Origin: Mucilaginibacter sp. OK283
GTDB taxonomy: Bacteria > Bacteroidota > Bacteroidia > Sphingobacteriales > Sphingobacteriaceae
Direction of reading: 5' to 3'
DNA: 64,000 nt
NCBI RefSeq assembly: GCF_900110415.1
Contig: NZ_FODR01000014.1
Span: 124,001 to 188,000 of the forward strand
Shown here: one piece after another, positions 11,424-28,570 of the stretch
Position numbering within the stretch: the stretch's first letter is position 1
How the letters are laid out: each line of letters starts with the position of its first letter
The notes under the pieces: model-generated
The model's input: only the letters and a program-made list of their open reading frames with translations
Databases searched by the model: none
What the model was told of the DNA's origin: nothing
Translations under genes and position numbers: made by a program

Positions 11424-11603
11424 AATCTTAACCTGTGCATTCCCTGTTTCATTAAAATGATAGAGAAAATCTTTCAGATTTGAATAAAATAAGCGTTTAT
11501 TGATTCGACTTATATTTACAGCCTCGCTTTTGCTTTGGCATCAAAATCGTTTTCCATGATGTGCGTAATTTTTGTCCTTAAATGGTGTTGAAATAGTTTT
11601 GAA

Positions 11604-11629
11604 ACAGCACCCCGTTTACAGAGTGCTGT
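11604..11629 (-). terminator. Hairpin downstream of the SSB gene
   Basis: ACAGCAC (11604-11610) and GTGCTGT (11623-11629) form a 7-bp stem just after the SSB stop codon. There is no strong T tract on the minus strand, so termination is possible but weakly supported. Confidence 0.35.
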
Positions 11630-11639
11630 AGGATGGGTT

Positions 11640-12547: not shown

Positions 12548-13408
12548 ATGAGGCAACTTAAAATTAGTGAGTCAATCACCAATCGTGAGACAGCATCGTT
12601 GAATCAGTATTTGTCAGATATCGCAAAGATTCCGATGGTTACTCCGCAAGAAGAGGTGACGTTGACACAAAAAATCAGGGAAGGCGACCAGGCAGCGTTA
12701 GAAAGATTAACAACTGCCAATTTAAGGTTCGTAGTTTCCGTAGCAAAACAATATCAAAGTTCAGGGCTGACACTTGGCGACCTGATCAATGAGGGCAATG
12801 TTGGTTTAGTTAAAGCGGCCAAGCGTTTTGATGAAACAAAAGGATTTAAATTTATATCCTATGCTGTATGGTGGATCCGGCAATCCATCTTATCGGCTAT
12901 AAATGAACAATCGCGCATGATTCGGTTGCCGTTAAACAAAGTTGGGGATATTTCAAAGATTGCAAAAGCGGCATCCAAACTGGAACAACAGTTTGAGCGC
13001 CAGCCAACACCGGAAGAAATAGCCGAGAATCTGGAATTAACCGCAGAAAAGATCAGTGACACGTTAGGGCATTCCGGCAGGCACATTTCTTATGATTCAC
13101 CATTTTCCAGTGAAGAGGAAAACACGTTACTGGATGTGCTGCACAGCCCCGAACCTGCTACAGATAAAGGCTTAATGACCGAATCGCTATCATTGGAGGT
13201 ATCCAATTGCATGCGTGTGCTTGGCGAAAAAGAAAAAGATATATTGTCCCTTTTCTTTGGACTGGGTACACAACAGGCCCAAAGCCTTGAAGAAATTGGC
13301 GATAAATATAACCTTACCCGCGAAAGAGTAAGACAGATTAAAGACAAAGCACTTTCCAGGCTTCGGGAAAATTCACGGGCCTGGGTGTTAAAGGGCTATT
13401 TAGATTGA
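12548..13408 (+). CDS. RpoD/SigA-like sigma-70 factor (accessory paralogue)
   Basis: 286 residues, the compact length of Bacteroidota primary sigma factors. Region 1.2 is SLNQYLSDIAKIPMVTPQEE. Region 2 contains LRFVVSVAKQYQSSGLTLGD and the -10 melting segment ISYAVWWIRQSIL. Region 3 has the PTPEEIAENLELTAEKI segment and region 4.2 the LTRERVRQIKDKALSRLR helix. Several positions differ from the near-invariant housekeeping protein (for example SKIAKAASKLEQQFERQPTP and the SFSSEEENTLLD area), and the context is an element border. I therefore read it as a second, accessory sigma rather than the essential rpoD, although that cannot be settled here. A strong terminator follows directly. Confidence 0.85.
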   Translation: MRQLKISESITNRETASLNQYLSDIAKIPMVTPQEEVTLTQKIREGDQAALERLTTANLRFVVSVAKQYQSSGLTLGDLINEGNVGLVKAAKRFDETKGFKFISYAVWWIRQSILSAINEQSRMIRLPLNKVGDISKIAKAASKLEQQFERQPTPEEIAENLELTAEKISDTLGHSGRHISYDSPFSSEEENTLLDVLHSPEPATDKGLMTESLSLEVSNCMRVLGEKEKDILSLFFGLGTQQAQSLEEIGDKYNLTRERVRQIKDKALSRLRENSRAWVLKGYLD

Positions 13409-13411
13409 CAA

Positions 13412-13445
13412 AAAAACTCCTTGCGACAACAGGGAGTTTTTTTTT
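13412..13445 (+). terminator. Rho-independent terminator after the sigma factor gene
   Basis: AAAACTCC (13413-13420) pairs with GGAGTTTT (13433-13440) and is followed by further T residues, only a few bases after the sigma stop codon. Confidence 0.85.
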
Positions 13446-13592
13446 AATTATCCTGGCGGGATTGCCGAATGGCGCATTAGGGATTGAAATGGCATCCTTC
13501 GACAGAAGATATAATGGAAAGCCCGACCGAAGGGAATGCCATAATGTTTTAAATTTCCTTAATTAAGCAAATTAAGAAGCTTTGAATTCTTA

Positions 13593-14213
13593 TCATATTT
13601 GATCGGAACCCGCCATAAATGCCCAATTCACGATTTGGCCGAGCGTTCCGAGAATGGCAGACCTACCTTCTTCGGTTTTCAGGTTAATGTCTGCAAATTG
13701 ATGTCCATTATTACGGGTATGCAAAACGATATAATAAATTCCGCCGACCAGGAGAGCTGCTACAGCCCGAAAGTTGACATGCGAATTTTCAAAATGCGGA
13801 TCGGTCATTTCTAAAAAATCCTGCCCGATGCTTTCCCTTGCGTTATGAATGCTTTGCATCATTTGACTTGTTCCGGAAAGTTCCATCAAGATCAAATTTT
13901 GCATTTCCTGTTCTTTGGAAAAGAACTTAAATAATTCCTGCAAAATGTCCGTTATGACTAACTGGCTATTGCCAGGACTGGCATCTTTTAGCAGTGATTT
14001 CAGATGCTCCGAAAAGACCATCCAATAATCATTTTCAGTAACATAAGCTTCCGTAAGGTTATCTAAATTACCAAAGTAACGATATACCAATTTTCTATCA
14101 ACACCTGCCTCGCGAGCAACATTACTGATGCGGACGTCCTTAAAACCCTTTGTTTTAATGATCTGACCTACAGCATCGATAAGCTTTCGCTTGGTTTGTT
14201 CTTTATCTTTCAT
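13593..14213 (-). CDS. TetR/AcrR-family transcriptional regulator
   Basis: About 206 residues from MKDKEQTKRKLIDAVG. The N-terminal helix-turn-helix is VRISNVAREAGVDRKLVYRYFGNLDNL, the standard TetR signature, followed by an all-helical ligand-binding region. The open frame extends to 14264, but the ATG at 14213 gives the typical TetR N-terminus. The SDR gene at 14315-15079 lies upstream on the same strand 101 bases away, so the two may be co-transcribed, with the regulator controlling the dehydrogenase. The effector is unknown. Confidence 0.85.
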   Translation of the reverse strand: MKDKEQTKRKLIDAVGQIIKTKGFKDVRISNVAREAGVDRKLVYRYFGNLDNLTEAYVTENDYWMVFSEHLKSLLKDASPGNSQLVITDILQELFKFFSKEQEMQNLILMELSGTSQMMQSIHNARESIGQDFLEMTDPHFENSHVNFRAVAALLVGGIYYIVLHTRNNGHQFADINLKTEEGRSAILGTLGQIVNWAFMAGSDQI

Positions 14214-14314
14214 TGGATAAGGTTTAAGGTTATCCCTGTTGCACCTAATAATGTCAATAAGCAAACCTTCCGTCAGCTTATACCATTCTTTTTTCCTGCT
14301 TAACCGACAAAAAA

Positions 14315-15079
14315 TTAAAACCGCAACGTGGAAAGAAGCCCGCCATCGACCGATAATATTTCTCCGTATAAATAATCAGAATCTGCTGACGCCAAAAAGA
14401 GAGACGCTTTCGCGATATCATCCGGTCTGCCAAACCGTTGTGCTGGTATTCTTTTGAAGGCTTTTACAATCGGTGAGTCCTCGTCATTTATGAATGGTTG
14501 AACCATGGGGGTTTGAATTAAACCGGGTGCGATCGCATTAGCTCTTATGCCATCATGCCCCATCTCAGCATTAATTTGCTTTGTAAAGCCGACTATGGCG
14601 TGTTTAGATATGGTATAGGCCATTCCCGCACCTCCGCCAATCAGGCCCGCATCCGAGGCCATGTTTACAATAACTCCATATTTATGGTCGATCATGCTTT
14701 GCAGAACATATTTAGTCACCAAAAAAGTTCCTACAACATTTACTGATAGTATCTTTCTTAACAGCGGCAAATCTGTTTGTGCCATGGGGATAAGATTGTC
14801 AAATACCCCGGCTGTATTGCAAAGAATGCTTATTTTTCCATACGCATTAATGGCTTGTTCATAAAGGGTTATTACTTCCTGTTCGTTGCTGATATCGGTG
14901 GTTCTACCTATCGCATCGCCTCCGCCCACTTTAATTTCTGATACTGTTTCCTGTAATTTTTCAGACTGAATATCGGCGGCGATTATTTTAGCACCTTCCC
15001 TGGCAAACAGTAAGGCCTGAGCCTTGCCTATGCCAGATGCCGCACCCGTGATCAGAGCCACTTGATTTGCTAATTTCAT
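14315..15079 (-). CDS. Short-chain dehydrogenase/reductase
   Basis: 254 residues. The NAD(P)-binding motif TGAASGIG is at residues 11-18. CNTAG replaces the usual NNAG at about 87-91. The catalytic residues are S142 (NMASDAG), Y155 and K159 (YTISK). The end carries DGG in the common SDR C-terminal pattern. It is a soluble NAD(P)-dependent oxidoreductase of the classical SDR type; the substrate cannot be deduced. The first 16 codons of the longer open frame are dropped in favour of ATG 15079, which starts MKLANQVALITG in normal family alignment. Confidence 0.9.
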   Translation of the reverse strand: MKLANQVALITGAASGIGKAQALLFAREGAKIIAADIQSEKLQETVSEIKVGGGDAIGRTTDISNEQEVITLYEQAINAYGKISILCNTAGVFDNLIPMAQTDLPLLRKILSVNVVGTFLVTKYVLQSMIDHKYGVIVNMASDAGLIGGGAGMAYTISKHAIVGFTKQINAEMGHDGIRANAIAPGLIQTPMVQPFINDEDSPIVKAFKRIPAQRFGRPDDIAKASLFLASADSDYLYGEILSVDGGLLSTLRF

Positions 15080-15164
15080 TTCTTTCTTATTAAGATCTTT
15101 TAATTTATTGCATAAAAAGAAACCCACTTAAAACAAACTTCTGGTTCTAAGTGGGCTTCCGGTA

Positions 15165-15458
15165 TTATTTGAAGGCGATTATTTCCGCCAATTCTATAGA
15201 CGGCTCTGGTTCAAACAGATCGTCCGCTGCCGACATCAGGGCGGCAACAAGTTTTCCGCTCAAATGGGTCTGGCGGCTTTCTTCTGATTCAAATGTATCG
15301 AAGATTCCGAAGGTGGTAGGCCCCAGTTTTAAAGCATACCATGAAACGGTTCCAAGTTCCTGTTGAACCAGCGGTAATGCATTAATCAATAATTCTGCTA
15401 ATTCGTTTTCTTTTCCGGGTTTGGCCTCTAATTTGGCCAGGATCGCTAATTTAACCAT
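15165..15458 (-). CDS. Antibiotic-biosynthesis monooxygenase (ABM)/quinol monooxygenase family
   Basis: 97 residues, the usual length of single-domain ABM proteins. KLAILAKLEAKPGKENELAELL and the following QELGTVSWYALKLGP, TFGIFDTFESEE and HLSGKLVAALMSAADDLF are the ABM signatures. These dimeric alpha/beta-barrel enzymes oxidise quinols or other aromatics, often without a cofactor. The ATG at 15458 overlaps the stop of a 38-codon small frame (15451-15567), and an ECF-type promoter copy lies further upstream at 15616-15641. It therefore appears to belong to the regulon of the divergently encoded ECF sigma factor at 15786. Confidence 0.85.
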   Translation of the reverse strand: MVKLAILAKLEAKPGKENELAELLINALPLVQQELGTVSWYALKLGPTTFGIFDTFESEESRQTHLSGKLVAALMSAADDLFEPEPSIELAEIIAFK

Positions 15459-15567
15459 TGTGTTTATGTTGAATTGATTTATTTGATTGAGGAATTATCT
15501 CGGCTAAGATTACGCTGATACAGCCGAGCATGATCATTCTTGTGATAAAACAGATAAAAATTTCCAT
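15451..15567 (-). CDS. 38-residue predicted membrane peptide upstream of the monooxygenase
   Basis: This short frame starts at ATG 15567 and ends with TAA at 15451-15453, overlapping the monooxygenase start by 8 bases. The peptide has one hydrophobic helix (MIMLGCISVILAEII) with a polar, His/Asn/Lys-rich tail. It is the first frame after the ECF-type promoter at 15616-15641, so it would be translated first and could couple translation to the monooxygenase. No homologue is known to me; it may also be a leader without a product role. Confidence 0.4.
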   Translation of the reverse strand: MEIFICFITRMIMLGCISVILAEIIPQSNKSIQHKHNG

Positions 15568-15615
15568 AGATTTCGATTTTTGTAAGGGTATCCAGTTGTT
15601 TTTAATACCCTGATA

Positions 15616-15641
15616 GACGATGCAGGCCGCCTCACCTTACA
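15616..15641 (-). promoter_or_regulatory. ECF sigma promoter copy D (monooxygenase unit)
   Basis: On the minus strand TGTAAGG (15641-15635) is followed by exactly 15 bases and CGTC (15619-15616), continuing TATCAGG. The same pattern with the same spacing occurs five more times between 15.7 and 23.5 kb. It reads toward the small frame at 15567 and the monooxygenase. Confidence 0.75.
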
Positions 15642-15737
15642 GCGGATTGAAAAAAAATTCAAAATGGCCTCTGTGAAAATATTTACAAACTGTATATCAG
15701 TTAATTATGAAAAAAAATTAAATATTATTATTTTCAG

Positions 15738-15763
15738 TGTAAGGATATGGTTGCAGCAACGTC
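15738..15763 (+). promoter_or_regulatory. ECF sigma promoter copy A (sigma gene itself)
   Basis: TGTAAGG (15738-15744), 15 bases, CGTC (15760-15763). The -10-like element ends 22 bases before the ATG of the ECF sigma gene, which implies positive autoregulation, common for ECF factors. Confidence 0.75.
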
Positions 15764-15785
15764 CGTGTGATAAAACAACTACTAT

Positions 15786-16358
15786 ATGTTAGGGACTAAC
15801 AGGAAACTTGACCCGGGGCTTTGGGTCAAAAACTATGCGGATTATTTGTATAACTTTTCGATACAGAGGGTTAATGATGAGGACATGGCGAATGACCTGG
15901 TGCAGGATACATTTTTATCGGCTTTGGAAAATGCCGAAACCTTTGCCGGCAACAGCAGCGAATTAACCTGGCTTAGGGCCATACTTAGAAACAAAATAAT
16001 CGATTACTATCGAAAAAAGTCTTCCGGCCTGAACGCGGTGACCGAGCGGCGGGATTTTGAAGAAAACCCGGTTGAATATTTCGGAGAGGACGGGATCTGG
16101 AAAGCAGAATTCGCGCCGACGCCTTTCGGGCATGACGGGCACCAGCGTTTAGATAAGAAGGAGTTTTATACTGTACTGGAGTTTTGTATGGAAAAATTAC
16201 CTGCCTTATGGATGTCCATCTTTCGTATGAAACACCTGGATGAGGAAAAAACGGATGTGATCTGCAAGGAACTGCGGGTAACCTCATCCAACTATTGGGT
16301 GATCATTCACCGCGCCAAACTGAGTTTAAGGGAATGTTTGCAAAAAAACTGGATATGA
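15786..16358 (+). CDS. ECF-type RNA polymerase sigma factor
   Basis: 190 residues with two domains. Sigma2 includes YADYLYNFSIQRVNDEDMAND, LVQDTFLSALEN (the core-binding helix) and TWLRAILRNKIIDYYRKKSS. A charged linker of about 50 residues follows, then sigma4 with FCMEKLPALWMSIFRMKHLD and the DNA-recognition helix VTSSNYWVIIHRAKLSLREC. It should direct RNA polymerase to the TGTAAGG-N15-CGTC sites, one of which precedes it. Its stop overlaps the start of the anti-sigma gene (ATGA, 16355-16358), the usual arrangement for a sigma and its inhibitor. Confidence 0.93.
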   Translation: MLGTNRKLDPGLWVKNYADYLYNFSIQRVNDEDMANDLVQDTFLSALENAETFAGNSSELTWLRAILRNKIIDYYRKKSSGLNAVTERRDFEENPVEYFGEDGIWKAEFAPTPFGHDGHQRLDKKEFYTVLEFCMEKLPALWMSIFRMKHLDEEKTDVICKELRVTSSNYWVIIHRAKLSLRECLQKNWI

Positions 16359-16654
16359 AAAAGTGGATCAACAATTTAAGGCTGAAGGCTAACGGACAAA
16401 AATACACTTGCCGCCGCGCGACCTATTTTATCGAAAAGCGGCACGAAAAAGCATTGAATATAAATGACCTGACCGAGTTATATATGCATTTGATCATTTG
16501 CCCTTTCTGCCGCCTTTACAGGATACAAAGCGCTATGATCCACAAAATGCTCCGGAAGATCATCCGGACAGAATCAGCTAATACCGTTGCCATGAACGGC
16601 GATGTCAAAGTGCAGCTACAGCAGATAATCGACGAAAAAAACAGAAATATTTAA
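16355..16654 (+). CDS. Zinc-finger (ZAS-type) anti-sigma factor, soluble
   Basis: 99 residues from the ATG that overlaps the sigma stop. The sequence has C (in KYTCRRA), then HLIICPFC, which is the HxxxCxxC core of ZAS anti-sigma domains. No transmembrane segment follows, so it is predicted to be cytoplasmic rather than membrane-anchored. It should bind and silence the sigma factor encoded just upstream until a signal acts, possibly redox or metal state through the cysteines; the signal is inferred. The frame also opens at 16295, but that part lies inside the sigma gene and is not used. Confidence 0.8.
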   Translation: MKKWINNLRLKANGQKYTCRRATYFIEKRHEKALNINDLTELYMHLIICPFCRLYRIQSAMIHKMLRKIIRTESANTVAMNGDVKVQLQQIIDEKNRNI

Positions 16655-16661
16655 TTTTCAA

Positions 16662-16687
16662 TGTAAGGATGGTCACCCGGCCTCGTC
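16662..16687 (+). promoter_or_regulatory. ECF sigma promoter copy B (DUF6799 and SnoaL-like genes)
   Basis: TGTAAGG (16662-16668), 15 bases, CGTC (16684-16687), continuing TGTCAGG. It lies just after the anti-sigma gene and 41 bases before the ATG of the DUF6799 gene. Confidence 0.75.
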
Positions 16688-16728
16688 TGTCAGGTCAAAG
16701 ATTAATTCCAAACATTAAAATTAAAAAC

Positions 16729-17022
16729 ATGAAAAAATTGATGATGGCTGCATTGGCCCTGACCTTAGGCTGCAGCGCAATGGCACAAACCAAAGCTGAC
16801 ACGACCCAAAAACCGGAGAACTTTGTAATGCGTTACCACGGTAAAATGATGAAGATCGTTGACGGAAAACCAACACCGATGACCGAAACTATTACGCTGA
16901 ACAATGGCGCTAAGGTAGCAGTTGACGGATCAGTTAAATTGCCAAACGGTAAGAAACTGAAGATCAAAGAAAATCAAAAAGTAACCATGAGCGGCAAAAT
17001 GTCGATGGCCACCGGTAACTAA
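16729..17022 (+). CDS. Secreted DUF6799 protein
   Basis: 97 residues with a signal peptide (KKLMMAALALTLGCSAMAQ, cleavage after AMAQ). Two short beta repeats follow: VMRYHGKMMKIVDGKPTPM and ETITLNNGAKVAVDGSV, then KLPNGKKLKIKENQKV. This looks like DUF6799, a small periplasmic family of unknown function in Bacteroidota. The ATG at 16729 is chosen because it begins the signal peptide; the earlier TTG at 16669 lies within the promoter. It directly follows ECF promoter copy B, so it is a predicted target of the sigma factor. Confidence 0.7.
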   Translation: MKKLMMAALALTLGCSAMAQTKADTTQKPENFVMRYHGKMMKIVDGKPTPMTETITLNNGAKVAVDGSVKLPNGKKLKIKENQKVTMSGKMSMATGN

Positions 17023-17085
17023 TCATTTATCCGTTTAGCAAAGTCTGGCACCTGCCGGACTTTGCTGATTTAAATACATAAGCAC

Positions 17086-17469
17086 ATGTCAACAACTCAA
17101 AATAATCCGTTAACCACGGAACAGATCGCTCAGCAGTTTTTTGAACTGGTATCACAAGGTAAATTCGAAGAAGCACAAAATACTTACTTTTCACCTGAGA
17201 TCATCAGCATCGAAATTCCCGATGCCGACGGATTCCGAAAAAAAGACCAGAGCCTTGGGGCCATTGCCGCTAAACGTGAGGCATTCCAGGCCATTGTGGC
17301 CAGTGTGGAAGGCTTAAAAACAGGCCAGCTGATCATCCAGGGTAATTCCTTCGCCTTTGCTTTCGAACTTGATTTTACCGTAAAAAACGGCGGCCCGCAA
17401 CGCCTCGCAGAAATTTGCGTTTACCAGGTCGAAGCTGGGCAGATTATCGTAGAGCAATTTTTTAATTAA
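17086..17469 (+). CDS. SnoaL-like / NTF2-fold protein
   Basis: 127 residues with the layout of a single SnoaL-like domain: helical start LTTEQIAQQFFELVSQGKFEEAQ, then FSPEIISIEIPD and beta strands GQLIIQGNSFAFAFELDFTV and AEICVYQVEAGQIIVEQFF. Such cone-shaped proteins bind small hydrophobic ligands or act as isomerases or hydrolases; no specific activity can be assigned. No signal peptide is seen. It lies 63 bases after the DUF6799 gene and ends at a strong terminator, so both probably form one unit from ECF promoter copy B. Confidence 0.75.
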   Translation: MSTTQNNPLTTEQIAQQFFELVSQGKFEEAQNTYFSPEIISIEIPDADGFRKKDQSLGAIAAKREAFQAIVASVEGLKTGQLIIQGNSFAFAFELDFTVKNGGPQRLAEICVYQVEAGQIIVEQFFN

Positions 17470-17493
17470 TATAGCCGATCCCTTTAATTGAAG

Positions 17494-17526
17494 ACGTCTG
17501 GCAACCTAATTGCCAGACGTTTTTTT
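17494..17526 (+). terminator. Rho-independent terminator
   Basis: ACGTCTGGCA (17494-17503) and TGCCAGACGT (17511-17520) form a perfect 10-bp stem followed by a T tract. It sits between convergent genes; the T tract favours termination of the plus-strand unit. Confidence 0.9.
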
Positions 17527-17543
17527 ATTGATGGCCGAATCGT

Positions 17544-18827
17544 TTAGAGCTCCGGATCATTAGCCAGGGTGGCAGCCATCTCCGGACTCAAATCATATTT
17601 ATTCTGTAGTGCGGCATTCAGATATTTATTGGCATCATAGCCCTTACCCATACCTTTCAGCAGGCTACCGATATAAAAAAGTTCCAGTCCTTCCAGTGGC
17701 CTTCCGGCAACATATTGTTCGTAAACCCGGTAAGCCTCATTCTTTTTATTGTTTTTGAAAAGCGCATACGCCAGCCATGCATAAGTCTGCGGAGTAGCGC
17801 GGTTAAGCAGTTCAGCCCTGGCCAGTTTTTCAGCTTCGTTTGGCTGGTGAAGAATGCCTGTATAAATTTCGATCAGGTATTTATTGTACATCATACCATA
17901 ACGCGGATCGGTTGCGGCATGGACAAAAGCGGCGGCATACTTTTTTTGCATTGATTTATTACCGGATTGTTGCGCCGCCTGATACATTTTAAAAAGAGGG
18001 TCGGGAAGTTTATTGTGGGAAAGGACGAAGTTAAATAAGCGGTTTGCCGCCACCGGATCATGGTCATGCACTAAAGCGATCCAGCCTATTCCTAAAATAC
18101 TATGAAAATCAACACTGTTTATCCTAACACATTCCTTATACGCACTGAGCGCCTTTTCCAGATCGCCGGTATGTAAGTACAGATCGCCTTGATTGGACAG
18201 CGCAATATCCTTCAGGTATGGCCCTTTAGCCAATGCTACCGCTTTATTGATGGCGCTTAACGCACTGTCAGTCATTCCCAGGAGATGGTCATATTTTGCG
18301 CGCCTGAAGTAGTAATTATAATCCTTGAACGGCTTTAATTGGGCGAGATAAAATTTGGCCTCGTTATAATGGCCCAGTTCAAAGCTGACGTCAAAGGAAA
18401 CATTATTACTGGTATAATTTTTAATGCCCAGCATTTTTGCCGAATCCAGTAGTAATTGCGCGCTGCTGAAACGGTGTTGCAACATCGCGGCAGCTACCAG
18501 GGCCAAATCTGCCGATGCTAATTTATGGCGATAAGTATTACTGATAGACCTGTAGATACTGTCAGCAGATCTGGCATCGTTAATATCACCAAAGTGATGA
18601 AAACGCATGATGAGCGTCGCGGCATACCTGGCTTCACTGGTATTTTGCTGGTTCTTCGGGTCAATTCTCCGCTGCCAGAATTTCATATCGGTATTGTTAT
18701 CGGCAACAGCTGCAGGTATGGTATAATGGTTTATCAGGCTGTCGAGATATATTTTGCCAACCAATGGCTGGCGCTTACAGGAGCTAAAGACCAAGGTCAC
18801 TGCAATAAGAGGGAAGAAAATTTTCAT
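17544..18827 (-). CDS. TPR-repeat lipoprotein
   Basis: 427 residues. A lipoprotein signal (IAVTLVFSSC, lipobox Cys near residue 17) is followed by a long helical solenoid of TPR-like repeats, for example YLKDIALSNQGDLYLHTG then LEKALSAYKECVRINSV, and ATPQTYAWLAYALFKN. It is probably anchored in the periplasm-facing membrane as a scaffold. It is the last gene of the minus-strand run DUF4331 pair, HupE-like, TPR, with 152 bases between it and the HupE-like gene, so it likely shares ECF promoter copy C. Function is unknown. Confidence 0.8.
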   Translation of the reverse strand: MKIFFPLIAVTLVFSSCKRQPLVGKIYLDSLINHYTIPAAVADNNTDMKFWQRRIDPKNQQNTSEARYAATLIMRFHHFGDINDARSADSIYRSISNTYRHKLASADLALVAAAMLQHRFSSAQLLLDSAKMLGIKNYTSNNVSFDVSFELGHYNEAKFYLAQLKPFKDYNYYFRRAKYDHLLGMTDSALSAINKAVALAKGPYLKDIALSNQGDLYLHTGDLEKALSAYKECVRINSVDFHSILGIGWIALVHDHDPVAANRLFNFVLSHNKLPDPLFKMYQAAQQSGNKSMQKKYAAAFVHAATDPRYGMMYNKYLIEIYTGILHQPNEAEKLARAELLNRATPQTYAWLAYALFKNNKKNEAYRVYEQYVAGRPLEGLELFYIGSLLKGMGKGYDANKYLNAALQNKYDLSPEMAATLANDPEL

Positions 18828-18979
18828 GATTACATTTTTAAATAAGCATCCGTTAACCGGCTGTCAGGCAGGAAATATCAAGCCGCACTATTGTTTAATT
18901 CAATTGGCTTAAGAAACCATTCAAGGGGAGCCGGTATAGTTTCCGCAGGGCATTGTGGTTTCCACGCCCTCAAAAGTTG

Positions 18980-19669
18980 CTAAAAGAAAATACGCTGAAT
19001 GGTCCAGAACCCTGCGATAACGACTATAATGGCCGATAACGGCATTACAACGAATTTTCGGTAATTAGGCTTTTTTCCGAACCATTTGGCCAAAAGAAAA
19101 TACGCTGCGACAATAATGGTAAGCTGGCCAAGTTCAACACCGATATTGAACATGATCAGGCTAAACAGATAGGAAGTTTTAGGAAGGCCAAGCGTACTTA
19201 ACACACTTGCAAAACCCAGACCATGGATCAATCCAAATAAAAATACAACACCGATACGTGACGCCTTAAGCTTTGGTGAAAATATATTTTCAAGGGCCAC
19301 AAACAGTATGGATACGGCGATCAACGGCTCGACTATTTTTACCGGAGGCGTAATGACGCCGTACATAGCCAGGCCCAGCGTTATCGAGTGGGCCACGGTG
19401 AAAGCAGTAGCCTGGGTCAACAGCGGTTTGATTTTAGGACTTAAAAGAAATAAACTCAGGATAAAGAGAATGTGGTCGAATCCAAGCGGCAAAATATGGC
19501 GATATCCCAAACCGAGATAAACCAGCGCCGCTTCCCCGCCAGACATTTTCGATAGTTCTTTTACGACCACATGGGCACTCGCGGGTCCGCTCCATATCGC
19601 GATAAGGAAGATAATTATTAGGGCACGGCCCCAAACACTTAAATGCCGGCTTTGTAAAACTTTACCCAT
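18980..19669 (-). CDS. HupE/UreJ-family membrane protein
   Basis: 229 residues. An N-terminal signal or first helix (ALIIIFLIAIWSGPASAH) is followed by about six transmembrane helices. The motif-bearing segments are LGYRHILPLGFDHILFIL, AFTVAHSITLGLA and FGLIHGLGFASVL, with the conserved His residues of the HupE/UreJ group; members are proposed or shown nickel/cobalt permeases. The exact subfamily here may carry another substrate. It lies between the DUF4331 pair and the TPR lipoprotein on the same strand, suggesting a metal- or small-molecule-linked envelope module under ECF control. Confidence 0.82.
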   Translation of the reverse strand: MGKVLQSRHLSVWGRALIIIFLIAIWSGPASAHVVVKELSKMSGGEAALVYLGLGYRHILPLGFDHILFILSLFLLSPKIKPLLTQATAFTVAHSITLGLAMYGVITPPVKIVEPLIAVSILFVALENIFSPKLKASRIGVVFLFGLIHGLGFASVLSTLGLPKTSYLFSLIMFNIGVELGQLTIIVAAYFLLAKWFGKKPNYRKFVVMPLSAIIVVIAGFWTIQRIFF

Positions 19670-19725
19670 TGGATGTTAAAAAAAACAGGCCGGAATCAAT
19701 CCGGCCTGGGTTAAATATTGAGTTA

Positions 19726-20256
19726 TTACCAGGGAGCAGCTTCGTAAGGAAAGGTGCCCAGGAAGGGTTTGTCATTGTGATCTACGTGATCCGAAACTAA
19801 TCCCGGATTAGAAGTTCCGTTCGGTCCTCCCCATATCAGCTTGAAGCTGGCATCGATCACATCGTCGGCCAACCCACGACCTGTAAAGGTCCCGTAGCTG
19901 GTTGTTCCTGCAGTGCTTACATTAAGCACGTCTGTTGCCAGGGTTTGGCTAAACGCCGCCGCGCTTAAGCCGGCAGCATTGGTTGTGAAACCTGGGTTCA
20001 ATGCCATGAGTCGGGACTGGATCGTGGATTGATACGCTGTACCCTGAGCAGAGGGGGCGGTCGCATTGAATTTGTCCTGCTGGGCAGCATTAATAAACAC
20101 AATGTTAACGCCTGGCCGGCCCACCTGGTCACCAGCAACTGAAAATGTAGCACCTGCGTTCGGATCTGACGGCGCTACGTTATGATCTTTATGGCAGGCG
20201 CTGATCGTTAGTACTAGCGCACAGCCGCTCAGTAAAAAATATAGTTTCTTTTTCAT
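19726..20256 (-). CDS. DUF4331-type lipoprotein (C-terminal half-like)
   Basis: About 176 residues from MKKKLYFLLSGC. It has a signal ending in a lipobox (LVLTISAC). The body resembles the C-terminal half of DUF4331 proteins: GDQVGRPGVNIVFINAA, TDVLNVSTAG, GRGLADDVIDASFKLIW and a final SDHVDHNDKPFLGTFPYEA. The upstream gene corresponds to the N-terminal half, so a domain usually found in one chain is made here as two exported proteins. They are 22 bases apart and should assemble with each other; that is inference. DUF4331 has no established biochemical role. Confidence 0.8.
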   Translation of the reverse strand: MKKKLYFLLSGCALVLTISACHKDHNVAPSDPNAGATFSVAGDQVGRPGVNIVFINAAQQDKFNATAPSAQGTAYQSTIQSRLMALNPGFTTNAAGLSAAAFSQTLATDVLNVSTAGTTSYGTFTGRGLADDVIDASFKLIWGGPNGTSNPGLVSDHVDHNDKPFLGTFPYEAAPW

Positions 20257-20278
20257 TTGATTCAAATTTCGGGATTGA

Positions 20279-20941
20279 TTAATTTTTTGTTTTCGTGTCC
20301 AGCCATACATTAATTTTGCCGGTGCTGTTCAGTAAGGATTTCGGTAGTTCCAAAACAACGCTCAATACGTTGGTTCCGGCTAATGAATCTGATCCGGGAT
20401 TGCTGAATGAATTGGCTGCGCCTGTTACCACTTTTACATAAGCGCCAATGTCAAAAAAGAAGGGATCGTCCCGCGGTCCCGCAAAAGCGGTGATACCCTT
20501 GGCAGATGTAGTAACAACAGGTGCCGTGGCGGTGTAAGGTGTTACATCAACAACAGCTGAAGCATTGCCAGTGATCGTACTGGTCGTCCCGGTGCTTTGT
20601 GGTTTATAGGGACCGTAGAAATACATCTTGCCGGCTTTATAAACACACTGGATCACCAGATCTTCCACATTATCGCCTGTGTTATCGATCTTGAATTCAA
20701 TCAGCGTGTTTTCATCAAAACCAGCTGTTTTAGTTGCAGTTGGGCTCAGTAAGCCCTGTACATTCGCCGTGAATACCATTTTGTCAGCATTTACCGGGCT
20801 TTGGTAAACATACAGGTCGGTAATGTCGGTGCTCTTACCAGAAACTGCAGGTGCATCTCCGTGGTCAGAAGCCCATAAAATCCCGCCGCCGAGCAGCAAG
20901 GCTGCGGCAGACAGGGCTGCCACCATTCTTGTTTTTTTCAT
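20279..20941 (-). CDS. DUF4331 protein, N-terminal half-like, periplasmic
   Basis: About 220 residues from MKKTRMVAALSAAALLLGGG, with a signal peptide cleaved near LWASDH. The mature start ASDHGDAPAVSGKSTDITDLYVY is the hallmark of DUF4331 proteins. Later segments are DKMVFTANVQGLLSP, FAGPRDDPFFFDIGAYVKV and VLSVVLELPKSLL. It stops where longer DUF4331 proteins would continue into the part encoded by the next gene. I start it at the ATG at 20941; the frame extends to 20962. ECF promoter copy C ends 39 bases upstream. Confidence 0.85.
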   Translation of the reverse strand: MKKTRMVAALSAAALLLGGGILWASDHGDAPAVSGKSTDITDLYVYQSPVNADKMVFTANVQGLLSPTATKTAGFDENTLIEFKIDNTGDNVEDLVIQCVYKAGKMYFYGPYKPQSTGTTSTITGNASAVVDVTPYTATAPVVTTSAKGITAFAGPRDDPFFFDIGAYVKVVTGAANSFSNPGSDSLAGTNVLSVVLELPKSLLNSTGKINVWLDTKTKN

Positions 20942-20980
20942 ACTTTTCTTATTAAATTTCAATTGTTATTTGCCCTGACA

Positions 20981-21006
20981 GACGATGTCAAAATCCTATC
21001 CTTACA
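20981..21006 (-). promoter_or_regulatory. ECF sigma promoter copy C (DUF4331-HupE-TPR unit)
   Basis: On the minus strand TGTAAGG (21006-21000), 15 bases, CGTC (20984-20981), continuing TGTCAGG. It points at the DUF4331 gene, and the last ten bases match copy B exactly. Confidence 0.75.
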
Positions 21007-21146
21007 ACCGCAGTGGATTATTTTCTATTAAAGAGGAACAGCGGCTGGCGAAGCATTTAAATGTTACTGATTATCAAAAGGGAAGCAGTCGTTTCCGGCG
21101 AAAAAAATAATGATGAAATAATTCAAGGGGTTGGCGGTATGAAATA

Positions 21147-23417
21147 TTATCTGAAAAAATAGCTGATATGAGCAAGGGCGGCGAATTTGGTGCCGGGGGT
21201 AAAAGCTATTCCATCAACAGGAGTCACTTCATTTTTTAACCGGGTAACCGTATCGAACTGGGTTTCTTTCCATTTTACATTAAATATGTTGTTGATGGTT
21301 AAGCCAATCTCATACTTGCGTTGCGTGTAATTAAGAACCACGTCATTGATAAAATAGCCTATTGCCGTCAGGCTGTAATCTTCGTTTGCCGGTCTTTTTG
21401 AAAGATAGCGGTATCTGAAGCTGGCATTTATGCCGCTTTTACCGGAATAGGTTATTCCGGCTGTACTGCTTAATACAGGCGCAAGTGGTATATAGTTCTG
21501 TCCATCAGGCTCGTCGATTGCCCGGCCATGCGCATAATTCAAATCCAGGTCGAAGAGGATCGACTTTACCGGTTGGTACCTTGCCGACAGGTCAGCTCCG
21601 ACGCGCCGGGTCCGGCCGCTGAAATCGACTGTGCCTCCGTCGCCACCATAGACAAATTCCTTTTGAAGATAGATATACCACAGTGAAGCATTGAACAGCA
21701 AGTTGTCAAAAGGTTTATACACGACCCCGAAATCGCCGGTATAAGCCGAAGGCAGCGTGCCTGTTCCCTTTTCAGCTACAACTACCCTGGCATCGTTGGA
21801 ATGAAAACCTTTGCCTAATGAAAGGTATAATTCCGTTTTGGAGGACAGCTGCTCATAAAAGTTCAGCTTGGGACTGAGCGAATGGTTAGAGGCCCTGTAT
21901 TTCCCGGTCCCGTTAAAAGTGGTATCACCTGCGAAAAGGTTTTGATAATGGTAAGCAAACTCATCAAATCTAAGCCCGGCATTGATACTGAACTTTTCGT
22001 TGAACTGAAAAGTTTCAGAAACATAAGCCCCTGTATTCAATTCGTTTATATTACCTAACTTGATCCTGTTCAGTAAGGTATACCTGTTTTTAGTATGCGA
22101 CAGTTCAGAGCTGTCGGTGACATCAAGCCTGGCATCCAAACCAATTTTGGAAGTTAATTTTATGTTGCCGAGGTAATGTTCATACAGGTAACTGCCATGG
22201 TAGCCGTACAGGTTGCGCTTTTCTTTTTGCCGTATTTCATCACCGTTTACCGGGTCTTCCAGGAAGAAAGTAAAATCCGTATGCAGGTCAAACTTATAGC
22301 GGGAATAGTAAAACTGATTTTTTAAGATACCGTTATTTTTGAAAGAGGTGATGAATTGGGCGTTAATATTGTTGCGCGAGGTCACCCCGCCCTCATTCGG
22401 ATCAAGAGCGCCGTAAAAGCCGACGATACCCTGGTCAATGGCCTGATCAGGGATCTGGCCGGAAGCAAACCAGCTACTGTGAAACACCGAAGCGGATAGT
22501 AAAAGCCGTGTATTACCGGAAAGCCGGGTACTGAATTTGGAGAATATATTCAGCCTGTTGAAATGCTGCGGGTTATCGAAATAGCTATTACTGAACCGGT
22601 ATTCAGATGCCACATACCACGACTGGCCTTTTGCTTTGTATCGATCTCCCAGCAGGTCAACCATGGCCAGCGCCCTATAAGTATCAAATTGTCCTCCTTC
22701 CACCCGGATTAAATTGCCAGAGATAGCATCCGCAGTATGAAAATCAACAAAACCCGAAGTAACCAGGTCGCCTTTTTCCGCATCATAAGAACCTTTTTTA
22801 TAATCGGTGCTTTCGATGGTTTCAGGAATAATAAAATGGCTATCGGCATAACCCTGCCCATGCGCATGAGATACCATATTGATCGGCATACCATCTACAT
22901 TCAAGCTGATATCTGTGCCATGATCTGCATCGAACCCGCGTAAAAATATCTGTTCCGCTTTTCCGCCGCCCTGGTGCTGACCGATGAATAAGCCCGGAAC
23001 GATACGGAGTACTTCCTGTGAATTTGATACGCCACGCATTTTAATATCGGCATCGCTTATCGTTTTATAAGGGTTACCTGAATTTGCATAAACCACTACA
23101 TCGGAAAGCTGGGTCTCATGAACGGCAAGCTCAATGACCTCTCCCGGATAGGTATTGTGCAATAAAATTTGCTTCTTTTCATAGCCAACAGCAGAAATGA
23201 TGATGGCCGTTTCGGCAGCGTTCACTTTGCCAAACTTAAATTGGCCATTTTCACCAGAAAAAGTGGTCCTGCTCCCTGGATTAAGTACGACAGTTGCTCC
23301 GCTTAAAGGAGCGCGGGTAAGACTGTCAACAATAACGCCGCTAATGGGGCGGTCCTGAGCGAGCAGCGCCAGACCGGGCAAGCATAACAGTAAAATAGCA
23401 GTTAAAAAAATCTTCAT
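21147..23417 (-). CDS. TonB-dependent receptor with carboxypeptidase-regulatory-like N-domain
   Basis: 756 residues: signal peptide to about residue 20 (LLCLPGLALLAQ), a carboxypeptidase-regulatory-like beta domain (PISGVIVDSLTRAPLSGATV), then the plug (ISDADIKMRGVSNSQEVLR, FLRGFDADHGTDISLNVDG) and a 22-strand barrel with a C-terminal aromatic end (ISYFFR). The plug has a striking His-rich stretch, NMVSHAHGQGYADSHF, which could bind a metal or metal chelate; that is inference. Such receptors import ligands across the outer membrane using TonB energy. ECF promoter copy F (23452-23477) lies 34 bases upstream. Its direction and position link it to the DUF4331/HupE-like unit downstream. Confidence 0.92.
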   Translation of the reverse strand: MKIFLTAILLLCLPGLALLAQDRPISGVIVDSLTRAPLSGATVVLNPGSRTTFSGENGQFKFGKVNAAETAIIISAVGYEKKQILLHNTYPGEVIELAVHETQLSDVVVYANSGNPYKTISDADIKMRGVSNSQEVLRIVPGLFIGQHQGGGKAEQIFLRGFDADHGTDISLNVDGMPINMVSHAHGQGYADSHFIIPETIESTDYKKGSYDAEKGDLVTSGFVDFHTADAISGNLIRVEGGQFDTYRALAMVDLLGDRYKAKGQSWYVASEYRFSNSYFDNPQHFNRLNIFSKFSTRLSGNTRLLLSASVFHSSWFASGQIPDQAIDQGIVGFYGALDPNEGGVTSRNNINAQFITSFKNNGILKNQFYYSRYKFDLHTDFTFFLEDPVNGDEIRQKEKRNLYGYHGSYLYEHYLGNIKLTSKIGLDARLDVTDSSELSHTKNRYTLLNRIKLGNINELNTGAYVSETFQFNEKFSINAGLRFDEFAYHYQNLFAGDTTFNGTGKYRASNHSLSPKLNFYEQLSSKTELYLSLGKGFHSNDARVVVAEKGTGTLPSAYTGDFGVVYKPFDNLLFNASLWYIYLQKEFVYGGDGGTVDFSGRTRRVGADLSARYQPVKSILFDLDLNYAHGRAIDEPDGQNYIPLAPVLSSTAGITYSGKSGINASFRYRYLSKRPANEDYSLTAIGYFINDVVLNYTQRKYEIGLTINNIFNVKWKETQFDTVTRLKNEVTPVDGIAFTPGTKFAALAHISYFFR

Positions 23418-23451
23418 ATTTATTTCAGGGAATATCCCATATGAAGGAATG

Positions 23452-23477
23452 GACGACGATATGAAATATTCCTTACA
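23452..23477 (-). promoter_or_regulatory. ECF sigma promoter copy F (TonB receptor)
   Basis: On the minus strand TGTAAGG (23477-23471), 15 bases, CGTC (23455-23452). A second CGTC three bases nearer gives an alternative spacing of 12; only the 15-base one matches the other copies. Confidence 0.65.
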
Positions 23478-23495
23478 TTATATAATGAAATGGGT

Positions 23496-23521
23496 TGTAA
23501 GGTATAGGCAGGCATTACGTC
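23496..23521 (+). promoter_or_regulatory. ECF sigma promoter copy E (DUF3095-like gene)
   Basis: TGTAAGG (23496-23502), 15 bases, CGTC (23518-23521), continuing TGTGAT. It diverges from copy F and lies 66 bases before the ATG at 23588. Confidence 0.7.
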
Positions 23522-23587
23522 TGTGATCTAAACCCTGTCTTGCATCCTGCTATTTAATGTCGGGGATTACAGGATAAATTTAACCCA

Positions 23588-24046
23588 ATGCATTTATTAA
23601 ATGATCTAATTGCACCGAACGAGTATTTTTACGCCCGGCTTCCGATCAATCAAATTCCTTTAGGCGAGATTTTGTTAAAGGATGAATTATTTTTTACGGT
23701 TCCGGAAAACTGGCATGTCATCGTTACGGATATTAAAGGTTCAACAGAAGCAGTTGCTGCCGGCTTACACCAGCAAATAAACCTGGTGGCAACGGGCAGT
23801 ACTGTCGCCAGCCTGAATATCGCGTTTAACAAAGGTATTGCCATACCTTTCTTTTTTGGAGGTGACGGAGCTACATTTCTTGTCCCGGCTTCGTTAAAAG
23901 AAGAATTGTTAAAATCGCTTCAGCTTTACAAACACAATACCATGATAAATACACACCTGGAACTGCGGGTGGGTGAAGTGTTTGTTCAGCAGATTTATGC
24001 CGCCGGATTTAAGCTTCGGTTGTCAAAATTTGGAAGCTCAGACTAA
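23588..24046 (+). CDS. DUF3095-like protein, truncated after the N-terminal third
   Basis: 152 residues. The sequence WHVIVTDIKGSTEAVAAGLHQ and then IPFFFGGDGATFLVP are the hallmark segments of DUF3095, a family related to nucleotide cyclases. Family members are usually well over twice this length, so the C-terminal part is missing; the frame stops at TAA 24044-24046 soon after LELRVGEVFVQQIYAAGFKLRL. The following bases contain no continuation I can see. It may still be expressed from ECF promoter copy E, but as a fragment its function is doubtful. Confidence 0.65.
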   Translation: MHLLNDLIAPNEYFYARLPINQIPLGEILLKDELFFTVPENWHVIVTDIKGSTEAVAAGLHQQINLVATGSTVASLNIAFNKGIAIPFFFGGDGATFLVPASLKEELLKSLQLYKHNTMINTHLELRVGEVFVQQIYAAGFKLRLSKFGSSD

Positions 24047-24142
24047 TCCGACTTACAGATTTGATAATCAAGTAAGGGTTAAAATATTTAGGATAAGGTG
24101 TAGATTAAAAAGTGAAACAATGTAAAATCCAGGGGTGGCAAC

Positions 24143-24304
24143 TTGCTGTTTCGCAATACCTTTGTTGTAGTCTTGTTTATGGTCTCGATCATATTGCTGG
24201 TAGGCACTGTCGTAATCTATAACCAGTTTAAACTCATCAGAGACAGGAATCCCGGTTTCGAGAAAGGCAACTTGTTGTATATTCCAATAATAGGAGACAT
24301 CTGG
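24143..24304 (+). pseudogene. Fragment of an FtsX-like ABC permease
   Basis: The frame reads FRNTFVVVLFMVSIILLVG and VIYNQFKLIRDRNPGFEKG, then NLLYIPIIGDIW, typical of the inter-domain region of Bacteroidota MacB/FtsX-like permeases. It begins and ends without proper gene ends; after GDIW (about 24304) the sequence changes abruptly into an opposite-strand sigma-factor fragment. Confidence 0.7.
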
Positions 24305-24541
24305 AGACGAGCAAATAATTCTCTAAACCAACGGGAAGAGTCAGGTACGTCCGCTTTTCCCAAAGTTTTATAAAAATATCCTGAACGATTCCCTCGCATG
24401 CAGTCTCGTCACAAAGGCGTTTATAAGCTGCATTAAAGAGTTTATTCCAAAATCTATTATAAACAGCTTCGAACGCTGCCTTATCACCCTATTTAATAAC
24501 ACAGCAAGTTCTTTATCGCTAAGGGCCGAAAATTCGAGCAT
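24305..24541 (-). pseudogene. Frameshifted N-terminal fragment of an ECF (FecI-like) sigma factor
   Basis: On the minus strand ATG 24541 gives MLEFSALSDKELAVLLN. One missing base in what would be an AAT-CAG junction shifts the frame, after which it reads DKAAFEAVYNRFWNKLFNAA, then YKRLCDETACEGIVQDIFIK, LWEKRTYL and ENYLLVS, the sigma2 region of a FecI-like factor. The rest is lost at the junction near 24305 with the permease fragment. Two decayed ends meet here, which marks a deletion scar. Confidence 0.7.
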
Positions 24542-24670
24542 TGGTTTATTAAATTAAACAGCGGGCAACTGAATATTTTTTAAAGTACGTATTATTTTGC
24601 GAGTTTAACAAAACAGAAAAAGAGAATGCAATACTTTCATGCCGACTGTATTTGGAAATATTCATTAGCA

Positions 24671-24730
24671 CTTTTTGTTTCTATAATCAAACGGCACTTT
24701 CCTATAAATTATAACGGGTTTGCTATAATT
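24671..24730 (+). repeat. 60-base promoter copy, near-identical to 38861-38920
   Basis: This 60-base stretch differs from 38861-38920 at only four positions by eye. Both contain CTATAAATTATAAC and TTTGCTATAATT. In the second location it is the upstream region of a TonB receptor gene; here the following gene has decayed. Confidence 0.85.
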
Positions 24731-24792
24731 TAAAGAAAAGGAATAACTCATAAAAATACATTTACATCAATAAATAAAAATGGCTTGTATCA

Positions 24793-24882
24793 ATGACTGA
24801 AGTTATTCTGTTGGTTGTTCTAATAATAATGGCTACGTTGTCCTTATTGCAAAAAAATAGACAATGAGTGGTATTGTTAAGG
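24793..24882 (+). pseudogene. Decayed 5' end of a TonB receptor gene
   Basis: Aligned with the start of the receptor gene at 38983, this stretch keeps the ATCAATGAC start context, TTGCAAAAAAATA at the signal-peptide end, and GAGTGGTATTGTTAAGG (GTGGTACCATTAAGG in the other copy), but the frame is broken. Together with the promoter copy at 24671-24730 it is the relic of a paralogous receptor. The remainder up to 25103 holds nothing else recognisable. Confidence 0.6.
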
Positions 24883-25103
24883 TATAAGTAGCCGATAATA
24901 TCACAAATACTAATGCTGCGGAAGACAGTACAAATGATTCGGACAATGAGTTTTTTACAGACCCTACGTAAAACCATCATGGTTAAGTAATATCGAAAGA
25001 AGCTTAAGCTAAATACATACAATGCCTTTCGCCATGATTCATAGGCGTACCGCTCTAACATTCATAAAAAATAGTCGAAGTAAGCCCCAATTAGTCTCAT
25101 GCT

Positions 25104-26156
25104 ATGAAAAAAACCATTTTTATCAGTAAATATCATTGGCTTCTTCCGATAGTTATCTGGATTGGCGTGTTTTTTTTGCTATTCTTATTTCAAATCATGA
25201 TTTCATATGAGGAACTGGATCGAGGAAAGGTTCTCAATACATTTTTACTAATCCAATGGGCAGTGTGTCTTTTTTTTGTCCATACTTACTTTTTATTGCC
25301 AATCATCCGTAGAAAAAATGGAAAATTGATTTATATACTGTTGCTGATTACCGGCTTAATATTGCATGTATTAATACTGATTAATCTTCAGCCGGATGTG
25401 TTCAGCCTGTCTGCAAAAAATATCCTGCCGTTAAAATCCAGAGTTTCTGGTGAACCGTTGTTTTTTCCGTTAGCACCTTACGTAATTGTCATATTTCACA
25501 GCTATTGTTATCGCCTATATATTGATCAAGTTAAGCAGAACCATATCCTGAAAGAGCTGGAAACTGTCAATGTTAAGATGGAGCTTCAGTTCTTAAGGTC
25601 GCAGATCAGTCCACATTTTATCTTCAACCTCATCAATACACTGGTTTCCCTGGCGCGTAAAAAATCCGAATTATTGGAAGATTCGCTGATCAATCTCGCG
25701 CAGTTATTGCGTTACATGCTTTACGATATTAATGACCAGCATATCCCACTGAATAAAGAAATAGAATATTTAAAAACCTATGTCGACTTGCAGCTGCTCC
25801 GTTTCGGAGATGGTATTAGCTTCAATTTGTTAGTTAATGGCAGCTTTGAAGGCTATAATATTGAGCCGATGATACTCATCCCATTTATAGAAAACACCTT
25901 TAAACATGGTACAGATTCCGTTGCCCATCCGCTAATCGATGTAGCCATTTGTGTTAATGAAAAGAAAAGAATTTTAAATATGACCGTCAAAAACAGCGTG
26001 AATAAAATTTCAAAAAACCAGGATCACAGACAAGGCATCGGTTTGGCAAATGTTCAGCGGCGGCTAATGCTCCTATACCCTGGAAGGCACCAAATTCTGC
26101 TATCAGAGACAAATGATACTTACAATGTCAATTTAGAAATTAGCTTATCAACATGA
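25104..26156 (+). CDS. LytS/His_kinase-family sensor histidine kinase
   Basis: 350 residues. Four transmembrane helices (about residues 13-130, e.g. LPIVIWIGVFFLLFLFQIMI and ILLLITGLILHVLILI) are followed by a linker helix and the kinase core. The phospho-acceptor is H171 in SQISPHFIFNLINTL. The ATP-binding N box is IPFIENTFKHG, and a late glycine-rich GIGLANVQRRL completes the ATPase. It should sense an envelope signal and phosphorylate the LytTR regulator encoded immediately downstream; the genes overlap by ATGA (26153-26156). It follows the decayed receptor relic, matching the layout at 37.5-39 kb. Confidence 0.92.
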   Translation: MKKTIFISKYHWLLPIVIWIGVFFLLFLFQIMISYEELDRGKVLNTFLLIQWAVCLFFVHTYFLLPIIRRKNGKLIYILLLITGLILHVLILINLQPDVFSLSAKNILPLKSRVSGEPLFFPLAPYVIVIFHSYCYRLYIDQVKQNHILKELETVNVKMELQFLRSQISPHFIFNLINTLVSLARKKSELLEDSLINLAQLLRYMLYDINDQHIPLNKEIEYLKTYVDLQLLRFGDGISFNLLVNGSFEGYNIEPMILIPFIENTFKHGTDSVAHPLIDVAICVNEKKRILNMTVKNSVNKISKNQDHRQGIGLANVQRRLMLLYPGRHQILLSETNDTYNVNLEISLST

Positions 26157-28522: not shown

Positions 28523-28570
28523 AATGGTCTTTAATTAAATGCTTTTAATTGGTGGTTAATAGGTTGAACA

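Follow-up and report, generated by a model that had tools for sequence, protein, structure and literature searches.

What reads a short two-block DNA sequence that recurs six times around a sigma factor gene is the question raised by a locus of the soil bacterium Mucilaginibacter sp. OK283. The window analyzed here is a stretch of 64,000 nucleotides (nt) of this genome (assembly GCF_900110415.1, contig NZ_FODR01000014.1, positions 124,001 to 188,000 of the forward strand), and it contains six copies of TGTAAGG-N15-CGTC close to a gene for a predicted extracytoplasmic function (ECF) sigma factor that starts at position 15786. The six copies are very probably promoters recognized by this sigma factor, with TGTAAGG as the -35 element and CGTC-YRT as the -10 element, within a model that combines insulation from a paralogous sigma factor with a change in the wiring of a promoter located inside sigma genes. 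The material for this account consists of sequences, counts, positions, codon constraint, and co-absence. The promoter set adds to a known ECF type, and the split between paralogues and the promoter embedded in coding sequence are what set the system apart.

Six exact copies of the motif beside an ECF sigma factor gene

The open reading frame (ORF) at 15786 encodes a predicted ECF (group 4) sigma factor with regions 2 and 4 only. Its product scores 71 bits against TIGR02937 (sigma70-ECF; cut-off, 42.9) and 52 bits against Pfam Sigma70_r2 (cut-off, 24), and Sigma70_r4_2 is matched with 22.5 bits, slightly below the cut-off of 25.7. The 3' end of the gene is overlapped by an ORF for a putative anti-sigma factor, whose match to the antisigmaE family is likewise under the cut-off (Table 1). 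Two narrower assignments of the sigma factor were considered and rejected. TIGR02943 (Sig70_famx1) is the best-matching NCBIfam family, but the score of 152.4 bits is lower than the curated cut-off of 162.2, and membership in ECF16 was dismissed on the basis of the promoter, which is (T/C)GTAAC-N17-CGAA in that group (PMC8315932) versus TGTAAGG-N15-CGTC/CGAC here.

A first-pass annotation of the sequence had listed the six copies, three of them continuing as T-G/A-TCAGG, and had seen no other copy in the window. The window scan recovered all six on the same strands and at the same positions with 0 mismatches (Table 1), the three continuations were confirmed, and the exact form was found nowhere else, either in the window or in the whole genome (G000; 7,185,297 bases). 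All six exact genomic matches thus fall within 7.9 kb, which is the opposite of the equal density across the genome that the annotation had named as counting against its proposal. The backwards-read control pattern has 2 exact matches in G000; if this is taken as the chance rate, 7.9 kb should contain 0.002 copies, and the probability of at least six is approximately 1e-19.

The copies had also been described as pointing into gene starts, and a same-strand gene start does lie downstream of every one. Counting from the final C of CGTC, the probable start codon follows after approximately 157 nt for the ABM gene, 22 nt for the sigma gene, approximately 42 nt for the DUF6799 gene (taking ATG 16730 as the start rather than the mechanical ORF start at 16669), approximately 39 nt for the DUF4331 gene (ATG 20941), 34 nt for the TonB receptor gene, and 66 nt for the DUF3095 gene. 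Copy 2 places a predicted two-block promoter before the sigma factor's own gene, a position that is the same in homologues.

A predicted family-wide promoter, mostly in CGAC form

The window motif is the CGTC version of a predicted ECF promoter that occurs family-wide in the Sphingobacteriaceae, mostly as CGAC. At the sigma loci of this family, TGTAAGG-N15-CGAC occurs before the sigma gene, divergently on the opposite flank, and downstream of the anti-sigma gene. Both blocks, at an unchanged spacing, recur in approximately 120 homologous sigma loci, either before the sigma gene or within it. Among 123 distinct sigma genes, 93 combine an upstream CGAC copy with Arg or Lys at residue 60, and 2 of these 93 add a CGTC copy. 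In total, 230 motif copies at Sphingobacteriaceae loci have a downstream ORF, versus 0 for the reversed pattern. The families encoded downstream (Pfam) comprise the sigma factor itself, DUF1223, Lys/Met-rich secreted peptides, MsrB, AhpC/TSA-type and ABM proteins, and others. The first-pass reading of the motif as a promoter of its own sigma factor is supported by these loci, with the correction that the motif is not unique to this sigma factor and is the CGTC form of a widespread CGAC promoter.

The repeats could instead be bound by an ordinary transcription factor or some other DNA-binding protein, since several window targets are arranged in divergent pairs, as is common for operators. However, the copies are nonpalindromic, oriented toward gene starts, and built with a fixed 15-base spacer; a -10 element of the CGTC/CGAC type is known for ECF sigma factors; and the motif stands at the sigma promoter or inside the sigma gene in well over 100 homologous loci. 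Such a protein is a highly improbable reader of these sites.

No description of the TGTAAGG-N15-CG(A/T)C motif was found among the open-access papers searched on ECF sigma factors and Bacteroidetes. In the open-access papers searched, neither a link between DUF4331 and a sigma factor nor a Sphingobacteriaceae ECF regulon of the Msr/DUF1223/Met-peptide kind was found. A Flavobacterium psychrophilum start map describes a single ECF motif, which contains a CGT box (PMC9723704).

A paralogous sigma factor and a same-species strain

G000 encodes a second sigma factor, 58% identical to the window sigma factor, on contig 14 (C14); it lies outside the sequence on which the first-pass annotation was based. 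CGAC copies flank the C14 gene, and the genome contains 7 TGTAAGG-N15-CGAC sites overall. Those beside C14 precede genes for DUF1223 and for a secreted peptide rich in Lys and Met, with 10 Met among its 57 mature residues, and two of the distant ones precede MsrA and MsrB genes.

The same-species strain G337 does not have the window sigma factor, its one match being the paralogue at 57%. It has no CGTC cluster and a single isolated CGTC copy, and it retains 7 CGAC copies, six of which are identical or nearly so across all 26 bases. Because the paralogue and the CGAC set are kept while the window sigma factor and the CGTC cluster are missing, G337 serves as a natural presence/absence control. 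Window positions 10001 to 29900 show only scattered matches of 63 to 83% to G337, with the 10- to 30-kb part matched at the paralogue level only, and by this comparison the interval is a strain-specific region. In G019, which belongs to another genus, the sigma factor nearest to the window sigma factor on the tree is accompanied by four CGTC copies, located before genes for DUF6799, a CarbopepD_reg protein, DUF4331, and an ABM homologue. The assignment of the motif to the sigma factor at 15786, put forward in the first-pass annotation, is supported by the restriction of the exact form within the genome, the co-absence in G337, the G019 copies, and the approximately 120 homologous loci, and transcription from the six sites would depend on this sigma factor.

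Two -10 sequences in one cell

All 10 CGTC copies of the window and G019 loci end in CGTC-YRT, whereas most other copies have CG(A/T)C followed by H-A-A. The -35 element and the spacer are identical between the CGTC and CGAC sets. The -10 element of the diverged module is altered at two places, because the third base has changed from A to T and HAA has changed to YRT. The two paralogous sigma factors of this cell seem to recognize promoters with different -10 elements, CGTC-YRT versus CGAC-HAA.

The two modules might nevertheless form one regulon, with the sites read mainly by the C14 sigma factor or by both sigma factors and the third -10 base tolerated. The shared -35 element and spacer are compatible with this, as are two loci with Arg60 sigma factors (L165 and L137), each having one CGTC copy among CGAC copies, and locus L064, where a CGTC copy precedes an MsrB gene. 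On the other hand, 6 of 6 exact CGTC copies in G000 lie beside the 15786 sigma gene, the cluster is missing in G337, which has a C14-type sigma factor only, and the window and G019 copies differ also in the bases after CGTC. A single regulon is unlikely on this evidence, and separate reading by the two sigma factors is preferred. The L064 copy (genome G246) reads CGTC-TAT and is located approximately 13.1 kb upstream of a CGAC-type sigma gene.

A comparable split is known from Bacillus subtilis, in which Qiu and Helmann (2001) reportedly showed by mutation that SigW and SigX are distinguished by the -10 sequences CGTA and CGAC. As in that pair, two ECF sigma factors in one cell would be separated by -10 bases, here judging from two clusters and the comparison of genomes.

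Within the family, all but two of the sigma factors that have an upstream CGAC copy carry Arg or Lys at residue 60, and the four CGTC sigma factors carry Leu or Ser there; the CGTC switch needs 2 changes on the tree. By homology to Mycobacterium tuberculosis sigmaH (PMC6411747), the third -10 base would occupy a Trp/Ile/Asn pocket adjoining the specificity loop. Leu60 may be a specificity change, which is a lead at the family level only. Residue 60 as a general determinant of A or T was a candidate that fitted perfectly at first, was weakened by sigma factors with Ser60 and CGAC, and was refuted by distant sigma factors with Lys60 and CGTC.

A promoter-like site inside the sigma genes of other families

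Homologues from most of the other Bacteroidota families sampled have the exact motif at approximately +465 inside the sigma coding sequence. In the codon alignment, the site reads TGT AAG/AAT G.. ... xCG TCN AAY, and the corresponding protein motif is CKEL-x-IT-x-SN. The inner motif is present in 68 of 75 eligible genes versus 1.96 expected from codon usage, with 19 of 20 in a first set and a replication of 49 of 55 in a second, later set. At the variable residue (Ala, Pro, Thr, or Ser), 74 of 75 genes have an xCG codon, versus 11.5 expected and a frequency of 12% at other positions of these genes. Lys is encoded by AAG in 33 of 39 (9.4 expected), Ser by TCN in 72 of 72 (46 expected), and Cys by TGT in 74 of 75 (46.7 expected). 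When 161 columns are ranked by synonymous conservation, the top three belong to the motif, the background columns are flat and near expectation, and the codons between the blocks are not unusually conserved. Six of the 7 exceptions among the 75 genes are due to Lys encoded by AAA, and the seventh is L253, a Mucilaginibacter gene.

The +465 motifs were first assumed to be a coding coincidence of CKEL-x-IT-x-SN, an idea helped by the facts that the amino acids permit the motif and that Cys and Asn are near-invariant for protein reasons. This assumption was rejected by the codon statistics, that is, the bias at the variable residue, Lys, and Ser, and by the freedom of the codons where an upstream promoter exists: the residue following Cys has 12 identities in genes without the inner copy and with an upstream one, versus only Lys or Asn in genes with the inner copy. 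Coincidence is hardly credible as the origin of the pattern.

The inner site is oriented toward the anti-sigma gene, with a median distance of 77 nt (range, 45 to 134 nt) to its ATG, and the bases that follow it (TAA, AAA, and CAA) have the same HAA preference as those of the intergenic copies. It is apparently an ECF promoter that drives the anti-sigma gene, embedded where the sequence encodes the region 4.2 helix and held by synonymous codon choice. A position so close ahead of the anti-sigma start would also suit a role in RNA structure, translational coupling to the anti-sigma gene, or ribosome pausing, in which case the conservation would be real and its cause a different one. However, the inner site shares the two blocks, the 15-base spacer, and the HAA preference with the intergenic copies, and the codons between the blocks show no unusual conservation, so that a cause at the RNA level is quite improbable and a promoter is the preferred explanation.

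None of 206 loci has both a sigma-strand upstream copy and an inner copy. When the motif columns are left out of the tree, 2 changes separate the inner and upstream states, L087 being the exception. In three Flavobacteriaceae-group genomes (G526, G454, and G732), the extended motif occurs once each, as the intragenic copy. The counterpart in the window gene has decayed and has 2 mismatches (Table 1), and activity would not be expected of it. No precedent for the deep conservation, dual codon use, and exclusivity of the inner promoter was found in the open-access papers searched.

Three further features of these loci were observed. On metagenome-assembled genome contigs labeled Pseudomonadota or Thermodesulfobacteriota (L248, L267, and L278), the inner motif has the CGAC form, through Thr (ACN) and not Ser (TCN); binning errors are possible. 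Small secreted Cys-rich (KCG) proteins, inspected by eye, follow the anti-sigma gene at L195-L197, L241, and L248, some of them followed by a DUF692-like protein, and recall copper-linked bufferin clusters. At Flavobacteriaceae-type loci (L201, L203, L204, L250, L255, L256, L261, L263-L265, L269, and L281), a conserved methyltransferase-like protein (MHFLPEKID...LEIGTYTGYS) is often encoded after the anti-sigma gene.

Proposed circuit and its evolution

The following circuit is a proposal. That transcription starts at these sites, which sigma factor uses which of them, the separation of the paralogues, the triggering signal, and whether the feedback is positive or negative are all inferred. 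The overlapping, co-encoded zinc-type anti-sigma factor would hold the window sigma factor until envelope stress, most likely by an oxidant or metal, releases it. The released sigma factor would then act on its own operon via copy 2, a positive feedback, and on five neighboring envelope units. The window module would be a diverged, strain-specific paralogue of the core CGAC module in the same genome, and the -10 difference would keep the paralogues from cross-activating. That the signal is an oxidant or a metal is a guess based on the kinship with the CGAC regulon and from the HupE/UreJ and TonB receptor genes.

In the widespread and possibly ancestral state, the released sigma factor would switch on the anti-sigma gene from within its own gene, a negative feedback, in addition to its targets. 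In the derived state of the Sphingobacteriaceae, the promoter would lie ahead of the sigma gene and both sigma and anti-sigma factors would rise; the window module would be a copy of this state that has a -10 sequence and envelope targets of its own. The direction from inner to upstream is suggested because the inner state is spread over several families, on a tree without a confident root. It is likely that an inner promoter across much of the Bacteroidota made one stretch of DNA be read twice, as protein and as site, that the Sphingobacteriaceae lost it and gained a copy in front, with self-activation replacing a feedback that had been negative only, and that a later copy changed its -10 element and gave rise to the window circuit.

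Several points limit or weigh against this account. With 1 to 2 mismatches allowed, the window scan gives 12 matches versus 9.4 expected, and a second mismatch scan gives 71 versus 100 for the reversed control, both at chance level. Because of this, only the exact motif is informative. The P values for codon choice treat the genes as independent. Regarding residue 60, two Pedobacter-group sigma factors with Ser60 retain CGAC, distant sigma factors with Lys60 have CGTC copies, and the association is limited to the family and to two events on the tree. In addition, the outgroup loci L241, L258, and L273 mix CGTC and CGAC in one locus, and the assignment of CGTC and CGAC sites to their sigma factors comes from location and co-absence, so that some cross-reading may take place. 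The signal is taken from the regulon of the paralogue because the window targets are mostly of unknown function.

The system bears on how duplicated ECF sigma factors become insulated, as the promoters of two paralogues differ at specific -10 bases and G337, of the same species, has only one of the two sigma factors. It bears on the evolution of feedback wiring, with an inner promoter on the anti-sigma gene versus an outer one on the sigma gene and never both. It also bears on how far regulatory DNA can shape a protein, as the predicted promoter lies in the sigma factor's own DNA-reading segment; if this is true, the promoter leaves only Lys or Asn after Cys. An envelope oxidant-defense regulon (MsrA, MsrB, DUF1223, and Met-rich peptides) is predicted for the Sphingobacteriaceae.

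Comparison with known systems

The core CGAC regulon resembles, by analogy of its predicted targets, the hypochlorite defenses of Brucella BcrS and Haemophilus RpoE2. The Brucella BcrS-AbcS system (ECF16), with bcrXQP, is a relative of Azospira MrpX, is induced by HOCl, and uses the promoter TGTAAC-N17-CGAA (PMC8315932). Like it, the CGAC paralogue here has a sigma/anti-sigma pair predicted to be autoregulated and, by promoter position, a Met-rich secreted peptide and methionine sulfoxide reductases as putative targets. Unlike it, the promoter here is TGTAAGG-N15-CG(A/T)C, the putative anti-sigma factor is of the small zinc type, and MsrA and MsrB take the place of MsrPQ. The window module itself differs further in having no Msr gene; its DUF6799 protein has 7 Met in 77 mature residues. 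Haemophilus influenzae RpoE2-HrsE has a small zinc-type anti-sigma factor, controls msrAB, responds to hypochlorite, and shows very limited autoregulation (PMC7907618). The likeness to the CGAC paralogue lies in an ECF sigma factor with a small zinc-type anti-sigma factor and in Msr targets, which are predicted ones here.

For the inner site, the closest counterpart is Corynebacterium glutamicum PrshA, a sigma-dependent promoter inside sigH that drives only rshA, with starts 62 and 66 nt before the start codon and measured negative feedback (PMC3489674). The inner site of the outgroup families is likewise within the sigma gene and, by sequence, aimed at the anti-sigma gene. Unlike PrshA, which is known from one species and is of the SigH/SigR promoter type, it belongs to another ECF clade, lies in conserved region 4.2 codons, occurs in several families, and excludes an upstream copy; the window gene, also unlike sigH, has only the decayed counterpart.

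Other features of the window

The features of the locus are listed in Table 1.

Table 1. Predicted promoters, genes, and sites around the window sigma factor gene (window coordinates)
Feature	Position	Strand	Basis
TetR-type regulator ORF, after SDR gene	13593-14264	-	
ABM-domain protein (15165-15458) and SDR oxidoreductase (14315-15127)	14315..15458	-	PF03992, PF13561
Promoter copy 1, TGTAAGG-N15-CGTC-TAT, toward ABM/SDR/TetR unit	15616..15641	-	Exact match
Promoter copy 2, CGTC-CGT, candidate autoregulatory, 22 nt before sigma ATG	15738..15763	+	Exact match; position kept in homologues
Predicted ECF sigma factor, 190 amino acids, TIGR02943-like	15786..16358	+	TIGR02943, TIGR02937, Sigma70_r2
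Leu60 codon, near end of specificity loop (FAGNSSE-L-TWL)	15963..15965	+	Loop position by homology to sigmaH (PMC6411747)
Degenerate counterpart of intragenic promoter, TGCAAGG-N15-CATC, 2 mismatches, codons of CKELRVTSS	16263..16288	+	
Putative zinc-type anti-sigma factor, H-x3-C-x2-C	16355..16654	+	NF052368, 38.6 bits (cut-off 50); HLIICPFC by reading
Promoter copy 3, CGTC-TGT, before DUF6799	16662..16687	+	Exact match
Secreted DUF6799 protein, Met-enriched	16730..17022	+	PF20606, 76 bits; Met count
Tetratrico-type secreted protein, downstream of DUF4331 genes	17544-18827	-	
HupE/UreJ protein (18980-19669), downstream of DUF4331 genes	within 17544..19669	-	PF13795, 152 bits
Two DUF4331 ORFs (19726-20310, 20279-20962)	19726..20962	-	PF14224
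Promoter copy 4, CGTC-TGT, before DUF4331	20981..21006	-	Exact match
TonB-dependent receptor	21147..23417	-	PF00593, PF07715
Promoter copy 5, CGTC-CAT, before TonB receptor	23452..23477	-	Exact match
Promoter copy 6, CGTC-TGT, divergent from copy 5, before DUF3095	23496..23521	+	Exact match
Truncated DUF3095 ORF, 152 amino acids	23588..24046	+	PF11294, positions 1-134 of 378

The DUF3095 gene is probably truncated, yet it retains an exact promoter copy. A mobile element was considered for the strain-specific region and rejected, as inspection by eye revealed no obvious integrase or transfer cluster among the long ORFs. The same region also contains an SSB gene (11640-12239) and a gene for an extra RpoD-like sigma factor (12548-13408).

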